Shown here piece after piece: positions 11,328 to 37,247 of a stretch of DNA of 52,417 bases. Below the pieces are notes generated by a model. It was not told the DNA's origin, did not search any database, and saw only the letters and a list, made by a program, of their open reading frames with translations. The stretch comes from Candidatus Bathyarchaeota archaeon B26-2. GTDB taxonomy: Archaea; Thermoproteota; Bathyarchaeia; Bathyarchaeales; B26-1. The stretch lies in assembly GCA_001593935.1 (NCBI GenBank), contig LUCE01000004.1:1-52417 (forward strand), written 5' to 3'. Positions within the stretch are counted from its first letter, which is position 1. Every line of letters begins with the position of its first letter. A program made the translations under genes and the position numbers.

Positions 11328-12080
11328 GTGGAAATGAGAGGGGAATTGACCGTTGAGGAGTATATGGCTGGCCTTGGGGTCGATATGCTTCACGCTGGAG
11401 GTATGAAGAGGACCGAAGACTTGGCGGAGATGTGTAGAGTCTCAAGAGGTAAGAGTGTGTTGGATGTGGGTTGCGGATATGGCAAGACAGCCTCCTTCCT
11501 CGTGAAGAAGTATGGTTGCGAAGTGTTTGGTCTCGATATCTCTAGGAGGATGATTGAAGGAGCGAGAAAGAAGGTGATGGAAGAACATGTAAGGGATATT
11601 GTGCATCTCCTGTTAGGCAACGCTGAGAGTATGCCCTTCAAAGATGAAAGCTTCGACGTAGTGATCTCCGAGGGAACAACAGTTTTTCTCGAAAAAGAGA
11701 AGGCGTTAAAGGAGTATGTTAGAGTTACGAAGCATGGAGGGTATATATGTTTAAATGAGCTCAGCTGGAGAAAGGAGCCTCCAAGAAGAGCTGTGGAACG
11801 AGCCTTCAATGATCTGCAAGGGGTACAACCACTCAAATGTGAGGAGTGGATAAAACTCTTGGTGGACTCCGGACTTGAAGATGTCGAGTCGAGGACTTAC
11901 AGGTATAAGAGCTTCTCGTGGGATGTTATCAGAAGCATAGGCCTCCATGCATTGGTCAAGGTGGGTGTCAAACATCTCATAGACTCCAGGATTAGAAGGT
12001 GGATAAGCCGTCAAGAAGCAGTCTTCCACAATTACTCCGAGTATTGGGGCTACGGACTCTACAGTGGAAGGAAGCCTTAA
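11328..12080 (+). CDS. Class I SAM-dependent methyltransferase
   Basis: SVLDVGCGYGKTASFLVKKYGCEVFGLDIS; NAESMPFKDESFDVVISEG. Confidence 0.9.
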   Translation: MEMRGELTVEEYMAGLGVDMLHAGGMKRTEDLAEMCRVSRGKSVLDVGCGYGKTASFLVKKYGCEVFGLDISRRMIEGARKKVMEEHVRDIVHLLLGNAESMPFKDESFDVVISEGTTVFLEKEKALKEYVRVTKHGGYICLNELSWRKEPPRRAVERAFNDLQGVQPLKCEEWIKLLVDSGLEDVESRTYRYKSFSWDVIRSIGLHALVKVGVKHLIDSRIRRWISRQEAVFHNYSEYWGYGLYSGRKP

Positions 12081-17108: not shown

Positions 17109-17414
17109 GTGGCGTTGATAGCTATCCTGTCGATATCCTTGGCCATATATGCGCTGAGCGGTCTTAAGGCGCCCAAACCCAGAAAGAGTCGAGACAAGGT
17201 CTCCGTATATGCATGCGGCGAACGAGTGAAAGTTGGAAAACTCAAGATAACCGTGACCTTACATGAGTATCTGACATATTTTGTTGTCCTTGACTCCTCA
17301 GCCTTGATGGTAGCCTTCGCATCGTTGGCAGCGGATACCGTAAACCCGCTCATCATACTAACCTACTTGATAATCGTCCTAGCGGCGTCCCTCATCTTGC
17401 GAGGAGGCGACTAG
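17109..17414 (+). CDS. NuoA/FpoA-like small membrane subunit
   Basis: 101 aa; KVSVYACGERVKVGK...HEYLTYFVVLDSSALMVAFAS matches the NuoA Y-x-CG ... hydrophobic pattern; first gene of Nuo-like operon; GTG start. Confidence 0.65.
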   Translation: MALIAILSISLAIYALSGLKAPKPRKSRDKVSVYACGERVKVGKLKITVTLHEYLTYFVVLDSSALMVAFASLAADTVNPLIILTYLIIVLAASLILRGGD

Positions 17415-17415
17415 A

Positions 17416-17844
17416 GTGCTCCGGGTAGGTCTCACCAACTGGGCAAGACGGAAGTCTCCGTGGGTACTCCACTTCAACAGTGGGGCCTGCAACGCGTGCG
17501 ACATAGAGGTTGTAGCCCTACTCACGCCGAGGTACGATGTCGAACGTTTCGGAATCTTACTCAAGCCGACACCTCGGCACGCAGACGTGCTTGTCGCAAC
17601 GGGACCAGTAACCAGACAGTGCGCCCAAAGGCTCAAGAGAATCTACGAGCAGATGCCGGACCCGAAGTTCGTGGTGGCGGTTGGGGCATGCGCCTGCTCC
17701 GGCGGGGTCTTCAGAAAATGCTACAACGTCATCAAAGGCGTCGATAAGGTTATCCCGGTCGACGTGTACGTGCCCGGATGCCCTCCAAGGCCTGAGGCCA
17801 TAATCGACGGAATAGTAAAGCTCCTCAAGGAGGTTGGAGGTTAA
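17416..17844 (+). CDS. [NiFe] hydrogenase small subunit / NuoB-like protein (proximal 4Fe-4S)
   Basis: [51 protein letters not shown]: group-4-hydrogenase style cysteine spacing. Confidence 0.93.
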
Positions 17845-17849
17845 AGGGG

Positions 17850-19523
17850 ATGGCCTCCTCCCGCGAGGATGAAACCATAAACACGCTCAGAGAGAGGCTC
17901 GGACAGGGCCTCCTGAACTCTTGGGTCTCTAGGCCTCGGAGAGCGTACGTCCATGTTAGACAAGGCTCCCATAGAGAAGCGATCTCAGCCCTCTTAAACA
18001 GATTTCCAGAGACAACCATCTCAACCATAACGGCGCTCGATCTGGGCGGGGAGATCGAGCTGAACTACCACCTGTGGTGTGATGGAACCGTCCTAACCGT
18101 ACGGGTTACTGTGCCTAAGTCCAACCCTGTGACCGAAACGGTGACCGACATCATTCCGGGGGCAGCCCTCTACGAGCGAGAGGTCTTCGACTTATTTGGA
18201 GTGAGGTTCACCGGGCATCCTGACTTGAGGAGGCTGCTCCTCTCAGACGACTGGCCGAGTGGGCAGTATCCACTGAGGAAGGATTGGAGCCCTGGAGCGG
18301 GCTTACCCCTCAAGGCGCCTCCCTCAAGGATAGGTAATCCAGATATGAGGGACGCTTCCTCGATAGTGAACGTTGTGGTCGGCCCCCAGCATCCGGCCCT
18401 ACACGAGCCTGAACGATTCCTGTTTAAGCTAGATGGTGAGACCGTTCTGGACGTTGAGACGAGGATTGGATACGTCCACAGGGGAATCGAGAAGGCTGCG
18501 GAGAGTCTCATGTTCTTCCAGAACGTCCACTTGGTAGAGAGGATATGTGGCATCTGTAATGTTGCACACACAGTCTGTTTCTGTCAAGCCGTCGAGGAGA
18601 TCGGAAGAGTAGAGGTTCCCCCAAGGGCTGAGTGTCTTAGGGTGATAATAGCCGAGCTCAACAGGATACATAGCCACCTCTTACTCTTAGGGGTCGCCGG
18701 TTTAGAAGTCGGCTTCGAGACCCTCTTCCAATACATATGGCGGGACCGTGAGACCGTCCTAGACTTGGTGGAAGGACTCACCGGGAACAGGATTATGGCC
18801 GAGTATAACACGATCGGAGGTGTTAGACGGGACATAAGCCCGAGCATAGCCCAAACGATCTTGAGGGAGATGAGAAACCTCAGGAAGAGAACGTCCTTTT
18901 ACAGGGAGGTCTTCGAGAGCGACCCAACCTTAGAGTTGAGGACCAAGGGGATAGGTAGGCTTAGGAGACCGGAAGCATTAAAGTTGTGTGTTGTGGGCCC
19001 GGTTGCGAGGGCGTCCGGCGTAGACAGCGACATCCGAAGAGATGATCCATACGCAGCCTATGAGGATGCTCCATTTAATGTCCCGGTCTATGATGAAGGC
19101 GACGTCTGGGCTAGGCTTATGGTCAGGGTCGATGAGGTTGCTGAGAGCATAAACCTGATAGAGTATGCGGTCGAGAACATGCCGAGCGGCCCCTTCAGGG
19201 TTAGGGTTGCTAGGAGGCAGCCTGAAGGCGAAGCTTTGAGCCGGGTTGAGGCGCCTAGGGGCGAACTCCTCCATTACGTTAAGAGTAACGGGTCGGCTTA
19301 CCCGGAGAGGGTTAAGGTCAGAACTCCGACTCTAGCTAACATAATCTCATTTAGGGAGATGGTTAAGGGATACTATGTGGCCGATATCCCAGCCATCCTC
19401 GTAAGTCTGGACCCGTGCTTCGCCTGCACCGACCGTGTAGCCCTCGTAGATGCGGATAGCGGCCGGAAGTGGATATGTAACCTAAGGGACCTGCGGAGTG
19501 ACAGATGGAGGAAACAGCCATGA
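17850..19523 (+). CDS. Fused NuoC-NuoD-like group 4 [NiFe] hydrogenase large subunit (HycE/HyfG-type architecture)
   Basis: N-terminal 30-kDa subunit domain ([31 protein letters not shown]) fused to large subunit with L1 [11 protein letters not shown] and L2 DPCFACTDR motifs. Confidence 0.95.
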
Positions 19524-20536
19524 CTTCGGATCTGCTCCTCCTAATCTTTAGGGTTCTCATCTTCCCGGGCTTCCTCTTTCTTCTATCCCTAACTCTATTC
19601 TGCGATTGGTTTGAGAGGAAGATTATGGCTCGGATGCAGAACCGTATGGGCCCGACGTATACGGGTCCTTTCGGGATTCTTCAGCCCTTGGCAGATTATG
19701 TAAAGCTACTCACCAAGGAGGATATAACACCTAGACGGGTAGGTGGGGTTATATTCGCCGTTACACCTGTCGTGTCGTTCGCTCTCTTCATGCTCTCAGC
19801 CTTCTACCTGCCGATAGACGGCCTAAATGTCTTCCATAACGTGGGCTTCGAGGGCGACCTCATATTGGTACTCTCCCTAATTACGTTGGCTCACTTCACC
19901 CTTTTCCTCTCAGGGTGGTCCTCAGCCAACCCGTACAGCGCCCTTGGAGCTACAAGAATCTTGGTCCAGTTCTTGGGATACGACATCCCGCTCATCATGT
20001 TAGCAGCCGGCTCAGCTCTCATGACGGGAAGTCTCTCCTTGAGAGAGATAGCTGCCAAGCAGAGCGTGCCCTTGGCAATACTTATGCCTTGGGCCTTCGT
20101 GCCTTTTCTGCTGGTCCTCCAAGCTGAGCTTGAGGAGGACCCCTTTGATATACCCCATGCAGAGACGGAGATAGTTGCTGGCTACGAAACCGAGTTCGCA
20201 GGCAGGAAGTATGCCTTCATCAGATTGAGTAAGGACCTTCAAGTGGTCTTTGGAGCGGCTCTCGCCTCTAACCTGTTTTTGGGAGGGCCGTACGGGCCTC
20301 TACTCTTCGGCCCTCCGGCCTTTTGGTTTACATTCTGGTTCGTCTTGAAGGTTCTCATCGTCATCTTCGTTATGGAGCTCATTGAGGCTATATGCGCACG
20401 GCTCCGCATAGACCATGTCGTGAAGGCGAACTGGAGCCTGATGTTCCCCGTCGCGGTGTTATCTCTAGCCCTAACGGTGATCGCAGTCCCTTGGCTCAGA
20501 GGGGCGACATGGATTGAACTGTTGGAGGCGAGATAG
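19520..20536 (+). CDS. NuoH/HyfC-like membrane subunit
   Basis: [64 protein letters not shown] at 19520 overlaps the upstream stop (ATGA) with GGAGG ahead. Confidence 0.95.
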
Positions 20537-20539
20537 ATA

Positions 20540-20938
20540 GTGGCCAAGGTTAGGATACCTCAGATTCTCAGGGAGGTTGCCTCCTCCCTCTTCAAGAGGC
20601 CGTCAACTAGGGGTTATCCAATCGTCAAGTCCATCCCGCCTGAAGGCTTCAGAGGTAGGCAGGTCTTCCATCCTGAAAGGTGTATAAGCTGCGGCCTCTG
20701 TGCTAGGGACTGTCCATCTGGGGCGATAGAGATGGTTGAGGTCTCAGGCAAGAGGATGCCCCTCTTCCATCTAGATAGGTGTATATTCTGTTACCTCTGC
20801 GTTGAGAACTGCCCAAGAAACGCCATAACATCTTCAACCACCTATGAGATGGCTTCGCTTGGTAGGGAGGGCATGATCATGAAGCCTAATGGCCAACCCA
20901 TGAATAAGGAAGACAACGGAGAGGTGCACCGCTCTTGA
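20540..20938 (+). CDS. NuoI-like 2x[4Fe-4S] ferredoxin subunit
   Basis: CISCGLCARDCPSGAI and CIFCYLCVENCPRNAI. Confidence 0.93.
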   Translation: MAKVRIPQILREVASSLFKRPSTRGYPIVKSIPPEGFRGRQVFHPERCISCGLCARDCPSGAIEMVEVSGKRMPLFHLDRCIFCYLCVENCPRNAITSSTTYEMASLGREGMIMKPNGQPMNKEDNGEVHRS

Positions 20939-21396
20939 TCTCGTATGAGATTGTGTTCACCGTTGCACTGGTGGTTTCAACCTTCCTAGCGGTCCACCTA
21001 GAAGAGAGCGTCCACGCGGTAGCCTCATTCGGCTTCATGATAATACTGCTCTCGGGACTATACTTCAGTCTAGGCGCTCCCTTTGCAGCGGTCTTCCAGC
21101 TGGCTATAGGGGTTGGGACGTTGGCGGTCTTCTTCCTAGCCGGAGAGATGCTGGCCTCGAAGAAGGAACCTACGCAGAGACTTAGAGGAAAACTCTTAGG
21201 CGTCTTGGCGGCGGTCATCCTCTCCCTTCCGTCCATAGCCTTGAGCGTCACCCCGAACGTTCAGATCAACTCTAAAGGCGTTCCTTTCTCCGAGGCCCTA
21301 TGGGGCTTGAGGGGACTGGACGTGGCTGCCCAAGGCTTCGTAATACTTGTGATCTCCATGGGCGTGGCCATAATCTTGAAGCGTAGGAGGAGTTAG
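20935..21396 (+). CDS. NuoJ-like membrane subunit
   Basis: 153 aa; FAAVFQLAIGVGTLAVFFLAGEML; overlaps the preceding stop (TTGA). Confidence 0.8.
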   Translation: MISYEIVFTVALVVSTFLAVHLEESVHAVASFGFMIILLSGLYFSLGAPFAAVFQLAIGVGTLAVFFLAGEMLASKKEPTQRLRGKLLGVLAAVILSLPSIALSVTPNVQINSKGVPFSEALWGLRGLDVAAQGFVILVISMGVAIILKRRRS

Positions 21397-21397
21397 G

Positions 21398-21721
21398 ATG
21401 GACTACGTGATACTTTCGATGACCCTCCTCGCAGTGGGGATTTACGGACTCGTTACGAAGCGTAATTTACTGAAGGTTCTGATCTCGATCGAGATCATAG
21501 CGGCCGCTGCGTCCATGAACTTTGTAGCCTTCGCGTCCATGGTCGGCGGGTCTCTAGGTCAGGCTTTCCTAATCTTAGCGTTGTCTGTTGACACCACACT
21601 TACGGCGATAATCATAGCCTTAGTTGTGGTCGCGTACCGTGACTTGGGGACGATCGATATATGGGCTCTCTCTAGGCTTAGGGAGGTTAGGGCGGCTAGG
21701 AGGAGGGGTAAGCGACGTTAG
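21398..21721 (+). CDS. NuoK-like membrane subunit
   Basis: 107 aa; RNLLKVLISIEIIAAAASMNFVAFAS with the conserved TM Glu. Confidence 0.88.
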   Translation: MDYVILSMTLLAVGIYGLVTKRNLLKVLISIEIIAAAASMNFVAFASMVGGSLGQAFLILALSVDTTLTAIIIALVVVAYRDLGTIDIWALSRLREVRAARRRGKRR

Positions 21722-21726
21722 ACCTC

Positions 21727-23658
21727 GTGGCGGAGTACTCGCCGTGGCTGGTCTGGCTGTTCCCAATAGTCTCCAGCCTCTGGGTTCCGCTTGTCTCCAA
21801 GCTTGGGAACCGGGCTAGGGACGGCTTCGTCATATCTGTAGGCGTCTTTACGCTCATCTTCTCAGCCTTGCTTATACCGACCATCTCCTCCGGAGGTTCC
21901 ACCGATCTCAGCGTAAAGTGGATCAGGATAGGAGGAACGGACATACGGTTAGGTGTGTTCATAGACCCCTTAAGCCTACTTTTCGCTAACCTTGTGGCCT
22001 TCGTCGGCCTAGTTGTCCTCCTCTACTCATTGAGCTACATGGCCCACGAGGAGGGCCTACCCAGATACTACTTCTTCATGCTTCTCTTCATAGGGTCAAT
22101 GGTCGGCCTCGTCTTAGCGGACAACTTCCTCCAGCTCTTCATCTTTTGGGAGCTCGTCAGCCTCTGCTCATACGCGCTGGTCTCGTTCTGGTATAGGAAG
22201 CCCGAGGCTGTCAAGGCCGGCATGAAGGTCTTCATCATGACGAAGATCGGGGACATCTCCCTTCTAGCCGGAATCTTGATCCTCTACGCTGGGCTACATT
22301 CACTCTCATATCAGCAGATATTTGAGCAGTACTGGAAGCTCCCCCAAGCGACCCTAACCGCTGTATCCATGCTTATGCTCTTCGGCGCCCTCGTGAAGTC
22401 AGCCCAGTTGCCTCTACACTCATGGCTATACAGCGCTATGGAGGCTCCTACATCAGTTAGCTGCCTCCTTCACGGGGCTACCATGGTCAAGGCAGGCGTC
22501 TACCTAACCGCTAGAACCCACGTCATCTTCTGTAATGTTCCGCTTTGGTTGGATTCGTTAGCTTGGATAGGAGCCATCACAGCCGTCTTGGGAGCGGTCT
22601 TAGCACTCCATACAACCGACATAAAAGGTGTACCAGCATACTCAACGGTGAGTCAGATAGGTTTTATGATGGCGGCGCTCGGTGTGGCGCCGTCGCCTCA
22701 ATCGCTAGGATGGTTCGCAGGCCTCTTCCACACGATCAGCCACGCCTTCTTCCAAGGACTAGGCTTCTTGGCGATAGGGAGCATAGTGCATCAGCTCGGG
22801 ACGAGAGACATGAGGAAGATGGGAGGCTTAAGACGTGATATGCCGATCACGTTCACCCTCTGCATAATCGTCATATTGGCTAGGTCCGGAATCCCTCCCT
22901 TCTGTAGCTTCTTCAGTAAAGGCTTAATCGCGAAGAGTCTTTTGTTGGCAGATAATACTCCACTCACACTACTCATATATGCGGCGGCCGCCATAACATT
23001 CGCCTACAGTTACAGGTTTCTAACAATAACATTTGCTGGCGAAAAGTCATCATACTTGAAGAACATCAAGGTACACGAGGCACCACGATTGATGTCCATA
23101 GCCTCAGGCATCCTTGCCGCAGGAACTATCATCTTGGGTTTCCTCGGAGGCTCACTCGTGGATTTCCTCGGGACGAGATACGTCTTCGACTTGGCGAGCT
23201 TCTTCAGTCTTGAGTCTTTAATGTTCGTTGTGACCCTTCTCATAGGAGGCTTGCCCATCTACCTCATCTACCAACGTAGGGTGGTTGGGACAGAAGACTT
23301 GAGGAGAGGCGCTTTGGGGGTTTTAGATAGGGTTATTGAAGAGAACTACTTCCTCGACCGTGCTTACGGCTTCATAGTCCGTGTTCTCTTAAGCCTTTCC
23401 AACAACCTTTACAGAATGGACATCAGAGTTATGGAACGCGTACCATACTTCGTAGCGAATGGGATAATGAGGCTATCCCACATAATGCTTGTGAGCTTCG
23501 ATTTGACTCTTGACAGGGTCGTTGCGTTTACCGCTGAGGCCATCGCGGTCCACAGTGTGAAAGTTAGGAGGGTGCATAGAGGTGTCTTATCCCACTTCGT
23601 CCTCGCAGCTACCTTCGGCGTCCTACTTTTATACATCCTACTCATACTAACGACCTAA
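21727..23658 (+). CDS. NuoL-like antiporter-type subunit with C-terminal extension
   Basis: 643 aa; LFIFWELVSLCSYALVSFWYRKPEAVKAGMKVFIMTKIGD; LHSWLYSAMEAPTSVSCLLHGATMVKAGVYL. Confidence 0.95.
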   Translation: MAEYSPWLVWLFPIVSSLWVPLVSKLGNRARDGFVISVGVFTLIFSALLIPTISSGGSTDLSVKWIRIGGTDIRLGVFIDPLSLLFANLVAFVGLVVLLYSLSYMAHEEGLPRYYFFMLLFIGSMVGLVLADNFLQLFIFWELVSLCSYALVSFWYRKPEAVKAGMKVFIMTKIGDISLLAGILILYAGLHSLSYQQIFEQYWKLPQATLTAVSMLMLFGALVKSAQLPLHSWLYSAMEAPTSVSCLLHGATMVKAGVYLTARTHVIFCNVPLWLDSLAWIGAITAVLGAVLALHTTDIKGVPAYSTVSQIGFMMAALGVAPSPQSLGWFAGLFHTISHAFFQGLGFLAIGSIVHQLGTRDMRKMGGLRRDMPITFTLCIIVILARSGIPPFCSFFSKGLIAKSLLLADNTPLTLLIYAAAAITFAYSYRFLTITFAGEKSSYLKNIKVHEAPRLMSIASGILAAGTIILGFLGGSLVDFLGTRYVFDLASFFSLESLMFVVTLLIGGLPIYLIYQRRVVGTEDLRRGALGVLDRVIEENYFLDRAYGFIVRVLLSLSNNLYRMDIRVMERVPYFVANGIMRLSHIMLVSFDLTLDRVVAFTAEAIAVHSVKVRRVHRGVLSHFVLAATFGVLLLYILLILTT

Positions 23659-23662
23659 GGAT

Positions 23663-25141
23663 GTGATCGGGATGATGGCGCCTTTATTATTCACGCTTCT
23701 TTTGCCGCTGATCTCGCTTCCATTCATATACCTGCTCGGTAGAAAGCCTAAAGTGGCGGCTCTCATCGTAACGGTCTCTTCTATACTCGATCTAGCCTTT
23801 CTGGCTATGACGGCCCCCACGGTTTTATCTGAAGGCAAATACGTGGAATCTTATAGGTGGATACCTATGCTCGGTTCTCCATTGACCCTATTTGTCGATG
23901 GGATAAGCCTCTCGATGGCTGTGATAACTCTACTACTGATAATCTCGGCAACAGTCTTCTCGATGAGTTACATGGAGAAGGAGGGCTCCCTCCGTGAATA
24001 TTATATTTTAATGGCGTTCCTCACAGTCGGGCTGGTCGGGGTCTTCATAACCTCAAACCTCATGGTCTTCTACTTCTGCTGGGAGTTCATGCTCATCCCA
24101 ACATACTTCATAATCGGGGAGTGGGGCTACAGGGAATCATACCGGGCAGCCTTCAAGTTCTTCATCTTCACCCACGCCGGAGCTGTCTCGGTCCTCTTGG
24201 GAATAGGAGCCATCTACATGCTTACAGGGGACTTGGACATGTTCACGGCTAGGACTCTTCTAGAGTCGGCTCCTCCAAGCCTCTTAGAATGGATATTCAT
24301 AGCCTTCACCTTGGGGTTCGCTGTGAAGATGGCCGTCGTTCCGGTTCACATGTGGCTTCCAGACGCTCACGCCGAGGCTCCAGCCCCAATCTCAGCCCTG
24401 CTAAGCGGGGTCATAATAGAGGCTGGAGCCTACGCTATACTTAGAGTCTCGTTCGGAACAGTCTTCCCATCCATCATGGACAGGGTGGCCGGCAGCCAAT
24501 TCCTGTACATAATCTCGACGTTCGGTGTGGTCTCAGCCTTCTACGGAGCTATGACAGCCTTAGCTGAGAACGATATAAAGAGGATCGTCGCCTACTCGAG
24601 TATAAGTCATATGGGCTACGTTCTCTTCGGACTCTCACTTTACCCCCTAGTGGAGGGGGTTGTCGGCACGGTCCTCCACCTCGTGAACCATGCGGCGAGT
24701 AAGGGGCTTCTATTCCTCTGCGCCGGAGCTGTCATGAAGCAGACTGGACTCAGAGATATACGGGAGATGGGCGGCCTCGCCTCCAAGATGCCCGTAACCG
24801 CGATCTCAACTGCGATCTCATCCTTCAGTATAGCCGGGATACCGGCCTTCGCATGTTTCATGAGCGAGTTCCTAATCTTCATGGGCGGCTTTCAAGCTAG
24901 CAGTATGGACGGGTTCTTCTATCTCCCGACGGCCCTCATGATTGTCGCGACGGTCTTCAGCCTAGCGTACGTCCTCAGACTCTTCTGGAGGGTCTTCTTG
25001 GAGGAGCCCAAGCCCGGAAAGGTCTCGAAGCTTCCAACGTTGATGGCAGTCTCTATGCTCTTTCTCTCCTTTGTGAATGTGGCTTTAGGTGTATGGCCCG
25101 GCCCTGTAATCGACTTGATAGGAAGCGCTGAGCTCGGCTGA
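23663..25141 (+). CDS. NuoM-like antiporter-type subunit
   Basis: 492 aa; WEFMLIPTYFIIGEWG; VPVHMWLPDAHAEAPAPISALLSGVIIEAGAYAILR. Confidence 0.95.
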   Translation: MIGMMAPLLFTLLLPLISLPFIYLLGRKPKVAALIVTVSSILDLAFLAMTAPTVLSEGKYVESYRWIPMLGSPLTLFVDGISLSMAVITLLLIISATVFSMSYMEKEGSLREYYILMAFLTVGLVGVFITSNLMVFYFCWEFMLIPTYFIIGEWGYRESYRAAFKFFIFTHAGAVSVLLGIGAIYMLTGDLDMFTARTLLESAPPSLLEWIFIAFTLGFAVKMAVVPVHMWLPDAHAEAPAPISALLSGVIIEAGAYAILRVSFGTVFPSIMDRVAGSQFLYIISTFGVVSAFYGAMTALAENDIKRIVAYSSISHMGYVLFGLSLYPLVEGVVGTVLHLVNHAASKGLLFLCAGAVMKQTGLRDIREMGGLASKMPVTAISTAISSFSIAGIPAFACFMSEFLIFMGGFQASSMDGFFYLPTALMIVATVFSLAYVLRLFWRVFLEEPKPGKVSKLPTLMAVSMLFLSFVNVALGVWPGPVIDLIGSAELG

Positions 25142-25155
25142 AAGGAGGGAACCTT

Positions 25156-26655
25156 TTGATAGGTCTCTTGGATGTGCTTTTGCCTACTGTCATCTTAACC
25201 GTCTCGGCCATGCTGACCCTGCCTATACTAACTGTAATTAGGCGTAGGAATAGCCATCACAGGGCTCTAGCTGTGCTCTGGATTGTCGTCCCCTTCTCGG
25301 CGGCAGCTCTCTGGATAATACACCTCTCTTTGGAGTATTATGGGAGTATGGGCTCTCAGCCCTTCGTCTTCGTCTCTTTTGCGCCTGGAGAGGAGGCTCA
25401 CCTCTCAAGCTCTTTCTTGGTGGACGCCGTCTCCATCTACATGGTGATCGTCTACTTACTGATGGGTTTCGCCTCATGCCTATACGGGATCCTTTACATA
25501 GGGTTCGAGGAGAAGCCCTCGGAGCGGTACTTCGCCCTCACCTTCATGGTTGTAGGAAGCGTTATGGCTGCAACCCTCTCAGGGGACTTGCTCACGCTCT
25601 TCATCTTCTGGGAGGCGTCAGCAGCAGGCTCATGCTTCTTGATAGCCTACAGGAAGAGAGCGGACTCCATCGAGGCAAGCATAAAATATCTAGTAATGAT
25701 CGTGATCGCTTCTGGGTTCATTGTCTACGGACTATCCATAATATACGGGCTCGTCGGTTCCCTGAACTTCTGGGTTGTTAGAGACGCTCTCATAACGGCG
25801 CCTGATAAGAGGCTTCTCTTAGCGGCGTTCCTTTTCGTGGCGGCGGGGTACGCGATCGAGACCGCTGTGGTACCTTTTCACATGTGGCTTCCAGACGCCT
25901 ACACTGCGGCTCCACCGTCTTCAGCCGCCTTCTTGTCGGCTATAGTAGATCAAGCGAGCTATTACGTCTTCATGAGGGTTCTAGTTTACATACTCACTCC
26001 ACCTGAGGTTCTGAACTGGCCTGTTGCCTTAGCTGTGTTCTCAGCCCTAACCATGACCGTTGGGAACCTCTTCGCCCTAGCCCAGAGGGATGTTAGGCGC
26101 ATGGTAGCCTACGTTTGCGTGGCAGATATAGGCTACAACCTAGTTGCGATAACGAGCGTGAAGCCATTAGGGGTCATGGGGAACCTCTTCTTCTTCTTTG
26201 TTGGGGGAATGACGACTGCCCTAGCCTTCATGGCCGTAGGCATAGTCAATAGGCTCGGCCTCAAGACTCTAGAGGACTTCGCGGGAGTTGGGAGAAAGTT
26301 CCCCCTCACGAGCATAGCCCTAGTTGTGGCAGCCCTCTCATTCTCAGGGGTCCCCCCGTTCGCAGGTTTTATAGCCAAGTATCTCGTCTTTACGGCGGCC
26401 ATAGAGGCTGGCATGGCTTGGCTGGCGGTCGTTGGGGTTCTAAACTCGGTTCTCCAGTCCGCCTACCTCCTCAGATTAATCCATTACATGTATGCTAGGC
26501 CGGCAGGGAGGAGAGTTAGGGGAGGAGAACCTCGGAATCTTCTCATCCCTGTCTACATAATGGTTGTGGCCATAATAGTTTTGGGCATGTATCCGGCGTT
26601 CGCCTTGGATTTGATTAACCCGGCGGCTTTGCAGCTTTCTTTACTTCTTTCATGA
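25156..26655 (+). CDS. NuoN-like (MrpD/NuoN/HyfB family) antiporter-type subunit
   Basis: 499 aa; IFWEASAAGSCFLIAYRK; VPFHMWLPDAYTAAPPSSAAFLSAIVDQASYY. Confidence 0.9.
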   Translation: MIGLLDVLLPTVILTVSAMLTLPILTVIRRRNSHHRALAVLWIVVPFSAAALWIIHLSLEYYGSMGSQPFVFVSFAPGEEAHLSSSFLVDAVSIYMVIVYLLMGFASCLYGILYIGFEEKPSERYFALTFMVVGSVMAATLSGDLLTLFIFWEASAAGSCFLIAYRKRADSIEASIKYLVMIVIASGFIVYGLSIIYGLVGSLNFWVVRDALITAPDKRLLLAAFLFVAAGYAIETAVVPFHMWLPDAYTAAPPSSAAFLSAIVDQASYYVFMRVLVYILTPPEVLNWPVALAVFSALTMTVGNLFALAQRDVRRMVAYVCVADIGYNLVAITSVKPLGVMGNLFFFFVGGMTTALAFMAVGIVNRLGLKTLEDFAGVGRKFPLTSIALVVAALSFSGVPPFAGFIAKYLVFTAAIEAGMAWLAVVGVLNSVLQSAYLLRLIHYMYARPAGRRVRGGEPRNLLIPVYIMVVAIIVLGMYPAFALDLINPAALQLSLLLS

Positions 26656-26700
26656 CGGTTATATCTCTGATTGGTAGATACTATCTTGAGGCGTAGATTG

Positions 26701-28230
26701 ATGAAGAGGGGGAGTAGAGATAGAAGCCTCATAGCCTTCGACGACCTAAATCGTACTGTTATAGGTAAGGGTTTCTGCACTTTCTGTGGGGCGTGTGAGG
26801 CTGCGTGTCCTGTTCATGCGATAAGGATAAGAGATCACGAAATCCATTATGACGACTGCTCGAACTTTCTGGACCTCTGCCCTATCTGCTACGACATCTG
26901 CCCTCATACAGAGCCTCTCCTAATGGAGGCGTTAAGGTTCGTCTCGGACGCCCCCCGGAGAAGGGAGGCGCTAGGATACTACAGGGAGGTCCTCTTCGCG
27001 CAGTCAGTTGACTCCAAGCTTAGAGAAGCGAGCCACAGCGGGGGGGTTGTGACAACTCTACTCATGCAAGGCTTGAAGGACGGCCTTATCGATAGCGCTG
27101 TGATCTCAGAGTCCGAACCTAACTCTCCACTGAAGCTGGCGCCTCAGATAAGTCTAGTTCCGGACGATGTCCTCTCGGCTGTCGACAGCAAGTTCTCACC
27201 GTCCTCGGTGGCCAAAGCCTTTGGGAGCGCGGTTAGAGAGTACGGGCGGGCTAAGATAGCCTTCGTCGGGGTACCTCACCAGATACTTGCCATAAGGAAA
27301 CTTGAGGCTTGGGAACACAAGATAATGGATAGCCTCGAGGTGACGATCGGGCTCTTCTGTCTCTGGATCTTCTCCTTGGACAATCTGCTGAACTACTTGG
27401 CTGGGAGGCTGGGTGTCGACATCCACGAGATCGTCAAGATAGACCTAACTGACACTTATAGGGTCTACACGGCGAAGGGGGTCTTCAAGGTCCCGATCTT
27501 AGAGATTATGTCTCACGTCATGAACAAATGTAGGACGTGTATGGACTTCACGTCGGAGCTGGCGGACATATCTGTTGGCGGAGCTAGCCCTCTCCAAGGT
27601 TGGTCAACCGTCATCATTAGGACCGAGAAGGGTGAAAAAATTTTCAGGAACGCTTTGGAGGCTGGAGCCTTAAGAGTTATGGGGATCGACGAGGCTAAGG
27701 AGGCCTTCGCCCACCTGATCTCGATGGCTACGGGGAAGAAGAGGATAGCCCTAAGAGAGATAAGAAGAATGAGGGATGAGGGCGTGTACATGCCTCCTTC
27801 AGACGTTAGGCTTGCCTTCTTATCTCACGAGGCCTCAGTTCTATCCGATATAAGGATAGAAGAGATTATGACGAGGAGGGTCATAACTGTTCCCCTAGAC
27901 ATGACGGCCTCTCAGCTTCTAGAAACGATGGTGAAACATCACCACATGGGTTATCCGGTCACGGATGCTGAGAACAATCTGGTTGGGATGGTAACCTTCG
28001 AAGACCTTATGGGCGTTCCGAAGGATGAGAGGGACGCAACCTTAGTCAAAGAGATAGCCAAGAGGAGGCTTGTCGTAACCTATCCGGAAGAGTCTGTTCT
28101 AGAGGCTCTCGAGAAGATGAACGGACACGATATCGGGAGGCTTCCGGTAGTCGACCCAGAGAATCCAAAGAAGCTCCTCGGGGTCGTAACAAGGAGCGAC
28201 ATCTTACACTCGTTGGGAAGACGCGTTTAG
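26701..28230 (+). CDS. FrhB/FpoF-like Fe-S flavoprotein (coenzyme F420 hydrogenase/dehydrogenase beta subunit family) fused to tandem CBS domains
   Basis: ORF 26671..28230, ATG at 26701. N-terminal GFCTFCGACEAACPVHAIRI and CPICYDICPH; FrhB-like ASHSGGVVTTLLMQGLKDGLIDSAVI and KCRTCMDFTSELADISVGG; C-terminal CBS pair IEEIMTRRVITVPLDMTASQLLETMVKHHHMGYPVTDAENNLVGMVTFEDL ... GHDIGRLPVVDPENPKKLLGVVTRSDIL. Confidence 0.9.
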   Translation: MKRGSRDRSLIAFDDLNRTVIGKGFCTFCGACEAACPVHAIRIRDHEIHYDDCSNFLDLCPICYDICPHTEPLLMEALRFVSDAPRRREALGYYREVLFAQSVDSKLREASHSGGVVTTLLMQGLKDGLIDSAVISESEPNSPLKLAPQISLVPDDVLSAVDSKFSPSSVAKAFGSAVREYGRAKIAFVGVPHQILAIRKLEAWEHKIMDSLEVTIGLFCLWIFSLDNLLNYLAGRLGVDIHEIVKIDLTDTYRVYTAKGVFKVPILEIMSHVMNKCRTCMDFTSELADISVGGASPLQGWSTVIIRTEKGEKIFRNALEAGALRVMGIDEAKEAFAHLISMATGKKRIALREIRRMRDEGVYMPPSDVRLAFLSHEASVLSDIRIEEIMTRRVITVPLDMTASQLLETMVKHHHMGYPVTDAENNLVGMVTFEDLMGVPKDERDATLVKEIAKRRLVVTYPEESVLEALEKMNGHDIGRLPVVDPENPKKLLGVVTRSDILHSLGRRV

Positions 28231-28263: not shown

Positions 28264-29286
28264 TTGAAGTCCGTCGACCGCGTCTTGGCTGCTCTGTATC
28301 ACGAGGAGCCCGATATGGTCCCATGCCTATGGGCCGTTGCATCGGGATTGAGAGGCCTCCAAGATGCCGTATTAAAGAGAGGCCTAAAGCTGCCGGGAGA
28401 CATGGTCAACGTTGGAAGCGTCTTAGATGTCGAGGTCGTTGAGCGTGGGCCCGACTACGAAGTCCTAAAGTCTCCTTTTGGGGACCTCCGTCGGCGTTCA
28501 TACAAGGTGGAGTATGGCTACATCAAACTCGTAAAGCCGGCTGTCTCCAGTCCAGAAGACCTGGATGGGCTGGAACCTCCTGAAGTCTCGATGGAGAGGG
28601 TTGAGGAAATCAAGAAGGTCGTTGAGGCACATGAGGATTACTTCACTTTTATAGGGCATGAGAGCCCCTTCGACTCTGTGACCCAGCATCTTAGGGGTTT
28701 CGAGCAGTTTCTTCCCGACATTCTTGGGAACCCTAGCTTCGCTAGGAGGCTCCTAGAATTCGCCGTTAAACCCCAAGTTGAGTTCGCTAAAGCCGTGATA
28801 GAGGAGGCGGGAGTTCAAGGGGTCTGGCTTACGGGAGACCTAGGGGACCGCCATGGACCCTTCATCTCCCCAAAGACCTATAGGGAGGTCCTATACCCGT
28901 GGGACCGCATGGTCGTCGACTCCTACCACAAGCTGGGAGCCTTCGTCTTCCTCCACAGCCATGGAAACCTAAACCTCATCTTGGACGACCTTGTGGAGGC
29001 TGGTTTCGACGCCCTTAACCCGATAGACGAGGCAGAAGGAATGAGTCTGGCCGCCTTGAAGGAAAAGTACGGCGACAAGATAACGCTCGTCCCTCAGCCC
29101 TCAACCTACAAGCTCGAGAGGATGCCGAAGGACGAGATAGAGGAGTACTTGGCAAGCCAGATAGGAGCAGCCGCCCATGGGGGAGGGCTCATCTACTACG
29201 GCGTAATCGTCAATATGCCCATAGGGAACGCCGAATGCTACGTGAGGGCCTTCGAGAGGCTTAGGAGATACCCCGTTAGATTCTGA
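28264..29286 (+). CDS. Uroporphyrinogen decarboxylase (URO-D)-like family protein
   Basis: 340 aa; VLAALYHEEPDMVPCLW, GVWLTGDLGDRHGPFISPKTYREVLYPWDRMVVD. Confidence 0.85.
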   Translation: MKSVDRVLAALYHEEPDMVPCLWAVASGLRGLQDAVLKRGLKLPGDMVNVGSVLDVEVVERGPDYEVLKSPFGDLRRRSYKVEYGYIKLVKPAVSSPEDLDGLEPPEVSMERVEEIKKVVEAHEDYFTFIGHESPFDSVTQHLRGFEQFLPDILGNPSFARRLLEFAVKPQVEFAKAVIEEAGVQGVWLTGDLGDRHGPFISPKTYREVLYPWDRMVVDSYHKLGAFVFLHSHGNLNLILDDLVEAGFDALNPIDEAEGMSLAALKEKYGDKITLVPQPSTYKLERMPKDEIEEYLASQIGAAAHGGGLIYYGVIVNMPIGNAECYVRAFERLRRYPVRF

Positions 29287-36077: not shown

Positions 36078-37247
36078 CTACGCCTTCGCCACGGGATAGA
36101 CGCCGTACTTCTTCGCGGTTCTAAGCATAGCCATGAAGAACACAGCCTTCACGTTTGGGTGGATAGTATTGGATGAACCGAGTATGTAGCCTCCTCCCGG
36201 GGCCGCGTCCCGAATGTTACTCAAGGTCTCACGGACAACAGCCTCTTCCGGGCCGAAGACCAAGCTCCGGGCGCAGTCAACGTTCCCCCATAGCACGAGG
36301 TTCGGGAAGGACCTCCTGAGGTCTTTAAGCCTCATCCCCGCTTGGGCATCGATCTCGCCGAATCCGTCGACACCGGACTCGGATAGGAGTTCTCTGGCAA
36401 TAGGCCAGATGTTCCCGTCCGTTCTGAAGATGTATGGGAGGCCGAGCTGGTGGCAGAACTCCGTGATCCTCTTCAACCTCGGCAGGATGAACCTCCTGAA
36501 GGTTCTTGGGGAGTAAACGGGACCTCGTGTGCCAGCCAAGTCTCCGCCTCCAAGTATGAAGTCGGCGCCATGCCTCTTCGAGGCCTCGATCATCTTCAGG
36601 GTTCGTTCAAGCTGGTTGTCCAAGTACCTCTCGACGAGGTGCGGCCTAGAGATTGTTGCTAGGAGCCAATGCTGGTCTATCGGTATGTTTATGCCTCCGT
36701 AACCGGCTATGAACTTCTCGTCTCCAAGCCTCTCCACGATGAGATCGTAGGCCTCAAAGGTCGTCTCGTCCACCTCAAAGCCTCCTCTTTCCAGAGACTC
36801 AACAAGCTTCTCTATAGCCTTGATTCCTTCACGCTTGATCGACGAGTCTATTGGCATACATTCCATAGAGACCGGGTTGTACCTCCGGACCTGCCATAGA
36901 CCTGTAGACTCGTCTTCGAAGTAGTACGTGTACTTGTCTATGATCCTAGTTGGGCCCTTCGACCCGGCGCTTGGAACCAGAGGCGGCCTAACGATGTCGA
37001 GCTCAAGCTTTACATGGAGCTCAATTATATCCTTCGCTATCCTCTTGACGAGGGTGTCCCGCTTACCCCTGTAAGTGAGCTCGTAGATCTGTCTCTGGCC
37101 GGGGCCTGAAGCAGCCGTGTAGGCTTCTCTACCCAGTATCTCCGAGGCCACGTTTGGGGATATACCTTGCTCGAAGAGGGGAACTCTGTCGGGCTCCTCG
37201 AAATCGAACGCCATCTCAACCCTTTCTCTGGAAGACAGCAAGTTCAA
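36078..37247 (-). CDS. Uroporphyrinogen decarboxylase (URO-D)-like family protein (divergent)
   Basis: RVEMAFDFEEPDRVPLFE; FILGGGDLAGTRGPVYSPRTFRRFILPRLKRITEFCHQLGLPYIFRTDGN. Confidence 0.82.
   Translation of the reverse strand: MNLLSSRERVEMAFDFEEPDRVPLFEQGISPNVASEILGREAYTAASGPGQRQIYELTYRGKRDTLVKRIAKDIIELHVKLELDIVRPPLVPSAGSKGPTRIIDKYTYYFEDESTGLWQVRRYNPVSMECMPIDSSIKREGIKAIEKLVESLERGGFEVDETTFEAYDLIVERLGDEKFIAGYGGINIPIDQHWLLATISRPHLVERYLDNQLERTLKMIEASKRHGADFILGGGDLAGTRGPVYSPRTFRRFILPRLKRITEFCHQLGLPYIFRTDGNIWPIARELLSESGVDGFGEIDAQAGMRLKDLRRSFPNLVLWGNVDCARSLVFGPEEAVVRETLSNIRDAAPGGGYILGSSNTIHPNVKAVFFMAMLRTAKKYGVYPVAKA

Follow-up and report, generated by a model that had tools for sequence, protein, structure and literature searches.

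An FrhB-type flavoprotein fused to a CBS domain pair is linked to the Hfo hydrogenase operon in Bathyarchaeia

Many Bathyarchaeia encode an FrhB-type protein with a C-terminal CBS pair (FrhB-CBS), whose gene is linked to the operon of the hydrogenase Hfo. We propose, with a probability of roughly 0.6, that FrhB-CBS is a peripheral electron-exchange subunit of Hfo, or a dedicated soluble partner of it, that carries a CBS regulatory module. We consider this the best reading because of the anatomy of the protein, its linkage to the operon across several gene orders and a gap in the published complex. The Hfo of Bathyarchaeia has been described as an Fpo-like group 4g [NiFe] hydrogenase from which the F420-binding module FpoFO is absent, with FrhB handled separately (PMC7886697). 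The absence of FpoFO from Hfo is likewise stated for hot-spring Bathyarchaeia (PMC8407382). An operon-linked FrhB-CBS fits this vacancy, an Hfo without an FpoF-like input module.

The Hfo operon

The window, which is the whole 52,417-nucleotide stretch that was analysed, is one contig (C13) of a bathyarchaeal genome of 1.89 Mb that is 99.8% complete. The named genomes closely related to it carry the label Candidatus Bathyarchaeota, apart from one MAG labelled Brockarchaeota. As C and D are fused, ten forward-strand genes for Fpo-like subunits precede FrhB-CBS. They start with a NuoA/FpoA-like membrane subunit (17109..17414), assigned by position and homologues with no Pfam match, and a NuoB/FpoB-like subunit (17416..17844, Oxidored_q6). 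These are followed by a NuoCD fusion, the hydrogenase large subunit of the Hfo type (17850..19523; PMC7886697), in whose D part all four [NiFe] ligand cysteines are kept (RICGIC and DPCFAC). Pfam matches identify NuoH-like (19505..20536), NuoI-like (20540..20938, with two [4Fe-4S] motifs), NuoJ-like (20935..21396) and NuoK-like (21398..21721) subunits, as well as the last of three antiporter subunits, which is NuoN-like (25156..26655). The other two, NuoL-like (21727..23658) and NuoM-like (23663..25141), were assigned by family-model matches. With the full Fpo-like subunit set A-N and both the L1 and L2 [NiFe] motifs in D, the operon is, judged by sequence, of the Hfo type; the subgroup label 4g is taken from PMC7886697. 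HypD is encoded in the same genome, which means that [NiFe] maturation is encoded as well.

A strict pattern search had suggested that D subunits of family f7 lack the [NiFe] motif. Alignment overturned this, as RICGIC is intact, and so is DPCFSC where the end of the protein is covered. In seven loci (L078, L079, L081, L085, L114, L115 and L118), DPCFSCTDR forms the very end of D, which has no extension at its C-terminus. Another complex-I-like group 4 hydrogenase operon was found at G000:C17:18100-27900 (L117), with RICGIC and DPCLAC intact and FrhB-CBS absent from the stretch read. The window also contains two URO-D family proteins (28264-29286, forward strand; 36078-37247, reverse strand). 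The first of these lies downstream of FrhB-CBS and resembles MtaA/MtbA methylcobamide:CoM methyltransferases with a score under the cut-off. It had no match in the relatives' loci that we inspected and was therefore excluded from the unit.

The FrhB-CBS gene and its product

The FrhB-CBS gene (26701..28230, forward strand) encodes 509 amino acids, comprising a ferredoxin domain (residues ~20-70), an FrhB flavin/Fe-S domain (~90-365) and a CBS pair (~385-506). Its ATG at 26701 lies 45 nt after the NuoN stop at 26655. We favour this codon over an upstream TTG at 26671, which would give 519 amino acids, because homologues start near the ATG. Scans for promoters and terminators returned nothing beyond chance level.

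The original prediction had described an FrhB-type protein with N-terminal ferredoxin motifs and a C-terminal CBS pair at this distance from the NuoN-like gene, and the reading frame, Pfam and orthologues all agree with it. The Pfam matches were Fer4 (E-value of 1e-5), FrhB_FdhB_N (3e-12), FrhB_FdhB_C (3e-34) and two CBS stretches (2e-29). Membership of the FrhB/FdhB family is clear, with 47.1 bits for PF04422 (gathering cut-off 22) and 118.6 bits for PF04432 (cut-off 23.3). The ferredoxin region has two sets of four cysteines (C26/29/32/36 and C53/60/63/67), which are invariant in an alignment of 30 sequences. Full-length orthologues with 45-65% identity occur in dozens of genomes; such intact copies in independent assemblies rule out a chance or mis-assembled fusion. 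The FrhB-CBS of Bathyarchaeum tardum is 501 amino acids long.

The Fe-S cluster of FrhB itself is bound in Methanothermobacter marburgensis by C104/134/192/195 (PMC3591093). Most relatives have all four of these cysteines, and the window's protein has three, with His193 replacing the first. This histidine of the PC motif (27277-27279) is shared by L053, L054 and L062, while the remaining aligned fusions have cysteine. The cluster of the window's small clade may be either His-ligated or lost. A structural model of middling quality (pLDDT 73, pTM 0.74) matches FrhB proteins, CBS proteins that bind nucleotides and, over 380 alignment columns, the 8RIU subunit.

Comparison with known electron-input proteins

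FrhB and FpoF are the top family matches of FrhB-CBS. Like FpoF/FqoF, the input subunit of the F420H2 dehydrogenases Fpo and Fqo, it combines ferredoxin and FrhB domains and has a complex-I-like membrane partner. Unlike FpoF/FqoF, it is nearer to FrhB, it has CBS domains, the D subunit of its partner is a [NiFe] hydrogenase, its F420 site features are changed and F420 synthesis genes were undetected in its host. It was rejected as FpoF proper, with 124.6 bits against a cut-off of 444 for NF006808 and 123.3 against 475 for NF040616. FrhB of the group 3a F420-reducing hydrogenase shares the flavin/Fe-S core at ~30% identity, but the ferredoxin and CBS domains are both missing from it, and the hydrogenase that it serves is cytosolic.

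The best profile match (E-value of 5e-60) is 8RIU, the zeta subunit of the F420-reducing CODH of Candidatus Ethanoperedens. Together with 8RJA (FwdI) from the same organism, it shares with FrhB-CBS the order of ferredoxin and FrhB domains, which are attached there to another redox enzyme. F420 reduction has been shown for both complexes (PMC11493965). At the C-terminus, in the place of the CBS pair of FrhB-CBS, 8RIU zeta carries a short extension for dimerisation. The window operon has the same subunits and [NiFe] motifs as published Hfo (PMC7886697). In the open-access papers searched, we found no description of Hfo linked to an FrhB-CBS protein and no report of FrhB joined to CBS. The parts are all of known kinds; joined in this way, and associated with Hfo, they appear to be new to the literature searched.

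The CBS pair

The pair consists of two CBS domains and has the ribose-binding Thr/Asp motif of nucleotide sensors. The GxxTxxD of the second domain is invariant in all 30 sequences, and this makes nucleotide gating plausible. The Asp of the first domain is kept in the window's clade and is Glu in much of f7. The fold and the GxxTxxD-type motif are common to AcuB, MJ0922 and the CBS tandem of the Archaeoglobus fulgidus site-2 protease; unlike these, the pair of FrhB-CBS is joined to a redox flavoprotein. S-adenosylmethionine and methylthioadenosine are further possible ligands of CBS pairs, and MJ0100 is among the matches to the FrhB-CBS model. Gating by energy charge, which the original prediction had put forward, is plausible from the invariant motif of the second domain.

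Distribution, linkage and phylogeny

We determined how widespread the fusion is by counting only matches that included CBS sequence, in a class sample of 221 Bathyarchaeia genomes. It was found in 41 of them, near full length in 39 and partial in two. An Hfo-type D match (E-value ≤1e-60) was present in 36 of the 41 (Fisher p = 0.004 against the sample, uncorrected for relatedness), and direct reading added a 37th, G199, where a truncated D gene lies beside the fusion. The screen returned no D match for G026, G167, G188, whose fusion is partial, and G196; in G167, NuoLMN nevertheless adjoin the fusion. Only about half of the 77 D-positive genomes of the order carry FrhB-CBS.

In 22 of the 35 genomes where both genes could be placed, the fusion and the Hfo D gene share a contig and lie within 13 kb of each other. 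The other 13 pairs were not within this distance on one contig, several of them in fragmented assemblies. Three gene orders were found, NuoN followed by FrhB-CBS, NuoI followed by FrhB-CBS, and FrhB-CBS followed by NuoA. In L073, FrhB-CBS and NuoA are separated by the gene of a small DUF1622 membrane protein (11588-12052), and similar proteins are present in this position in L068, L081 and L085. The original prediction had called for a survey of co-occurrence with group 4 hydrogenases, and it held up: the linkage spans several families of one archaeal order, and homologues do co-occur with the operon in related genomes.

In a tree of the FrhB part, all fusions fall into one clade with a support of 100/100, which includes a few members without CBS. 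This is best read as a single gain of CBS followed by losses; the reading is unproven, as the tree needs four label changes. Beyond Bathyarchaeia, full-length fusions were found only in the MAG labelled Brockarchaeota (L062) and in one genome (L125) of a sample around the Heimdallarchaeota genome G554. These two cases may reflect wrong binning, a wrong label or transfer.

Electron carrier and alternative explanations

The original prediction was that the subunit links F420H2 (or ferredoxin) to the hydrogenase, and its F420 part rested on family names. If FrhB-CBS were a true F420 module, F420H2 would reduce its FAD and electrons would pass to the hydrogenase, or would flow the opposite way, under the control of adenine nucleotides, with F420 or F0 taken up from neighbours where F420 is not made. 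FrhB and FpoF as the best family matches, and solved relatives that reduce F420, are consistent with this. So is the presence of CofE-like ligases in each of the 23 genomes tested and of CofD in 11 of them. However, CofD, CofG and CofH were not detected in the window's genome, which does have CofE-like genes, while methanogen controls matched over the cut-off. CofD was also undetected in eight of the 19 fusion genomes tested, including the single-contig G013. The F0 synthase (CofG, CofH) reached the cut-off in none of the 23 genomes, and CofH did so in only six of 128 near-complete Bathyarchaeia. Where CofD is present in G161 and G167, it lies beside the other FrhB paralogue. Each of the 23 genomes has two to five CofE-like ligases (in G000, on C8, C56 and C18), although CofG and CofH were undetected and CofD often was too. 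F420 synthesis has independently been reported missing in other Bathyarchaeia (PMC9534799, PMC10989822), and in an enrichment study a Bathyarchaeia archaeon was suggested to depend on co-cultured bacteria, with F420 named as a cofactor that it cannot make (PMC10989822), which is in line with uptake.

The binding site has changed as well. In FrhB of M. marburgensis, F420 is located near S209-V210 and near an IGKGK loop that is conserved (PMC3591093). None of the 30 aligned fusions has an IGKGK-type loop, and all 30 have G-[GST]-[AG]-x-P-L in the F420 pocket instead of the G-S-V/I-G-S that 8RIU and 8RJA keep. We regard these changes as suggestive only, since the F420-active 8RJA also works without the loop and salvage of F420 is possible. 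Because the known F420 pathway was not detected in the window's genome, F420 is probably not the electron partner in this organism, and an F420 module appears unlikely; ferredoxin, which the original prediction also named, may be the carrier instead. We hold it to be quite improbable that FrhB-CBS is a soluble flavoprotein that does separate work and is merely encoded near the operon, for example, like plant HCAR, as a ferredoxin-fed reductase of a small molecule. HCAR belongs to the same family and is among both the fold and the sequence matches, and a few genomes have the fusion with no D match. Moreover, part of f7 has unlinked copies, many beside aconitase: FrhB-CBS is relocated there, next to an aconitase gene in six of eight such loci. 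In L066, L067, L070, L071, L076 and L077, the relocated gene lies 5' of a gene from a single protein cluster, and the member of this cluster in L071 was typed as aconitase. Against a separate job, linkage has been kept through divergent operon layouts at ~50% protein identity, and fusion genomes without an Hfo D gene are few.

Proposed role in Hfo

As an electron-exchange subunit of Hfo, FrhB-CBS would pass electrons between a cytosolic carrier and the FAD and [4Fe-4S] cluster of its FrhB domain. From there they could move to or from its own two-cluster ferredoxin domain, and the path would continue through NuoI, the proposed docking partner of that domain, towards the [NiFe] site and thereby the ion pump. 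In the window's organism, F420 would be less likely as the carrier than ferredoxin or some further hydride carrier. At the C-terminus, the CBS pair may mediate dimerisation and bind either an adenine nucleotide or a different adenosyl ligand, so that the entry or exit of electrons would respond to the energy state of the cell. In its boldest and most tentative form, which we rate as doubtful, FrhB-CBS would be an F420-independent FrhB-type flavoprotein acting as a nucleotide-gated electron valve, with CBS-bound nucleotides switching the exchange between the cytosol and the ion-pumping [NiFe] hydrogenase.

Hfo features in discussions of how energy-converting hydrogenases are connected with complex I, as a link between the two. 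The presence of an FrhB-like gene is not always evidence of F420 metabolism, which calls for caution. A conserved, operon-linked candidate input module with a built-in candidate sensor of energy state makes the electron source of this widespread sediment lineage testable.
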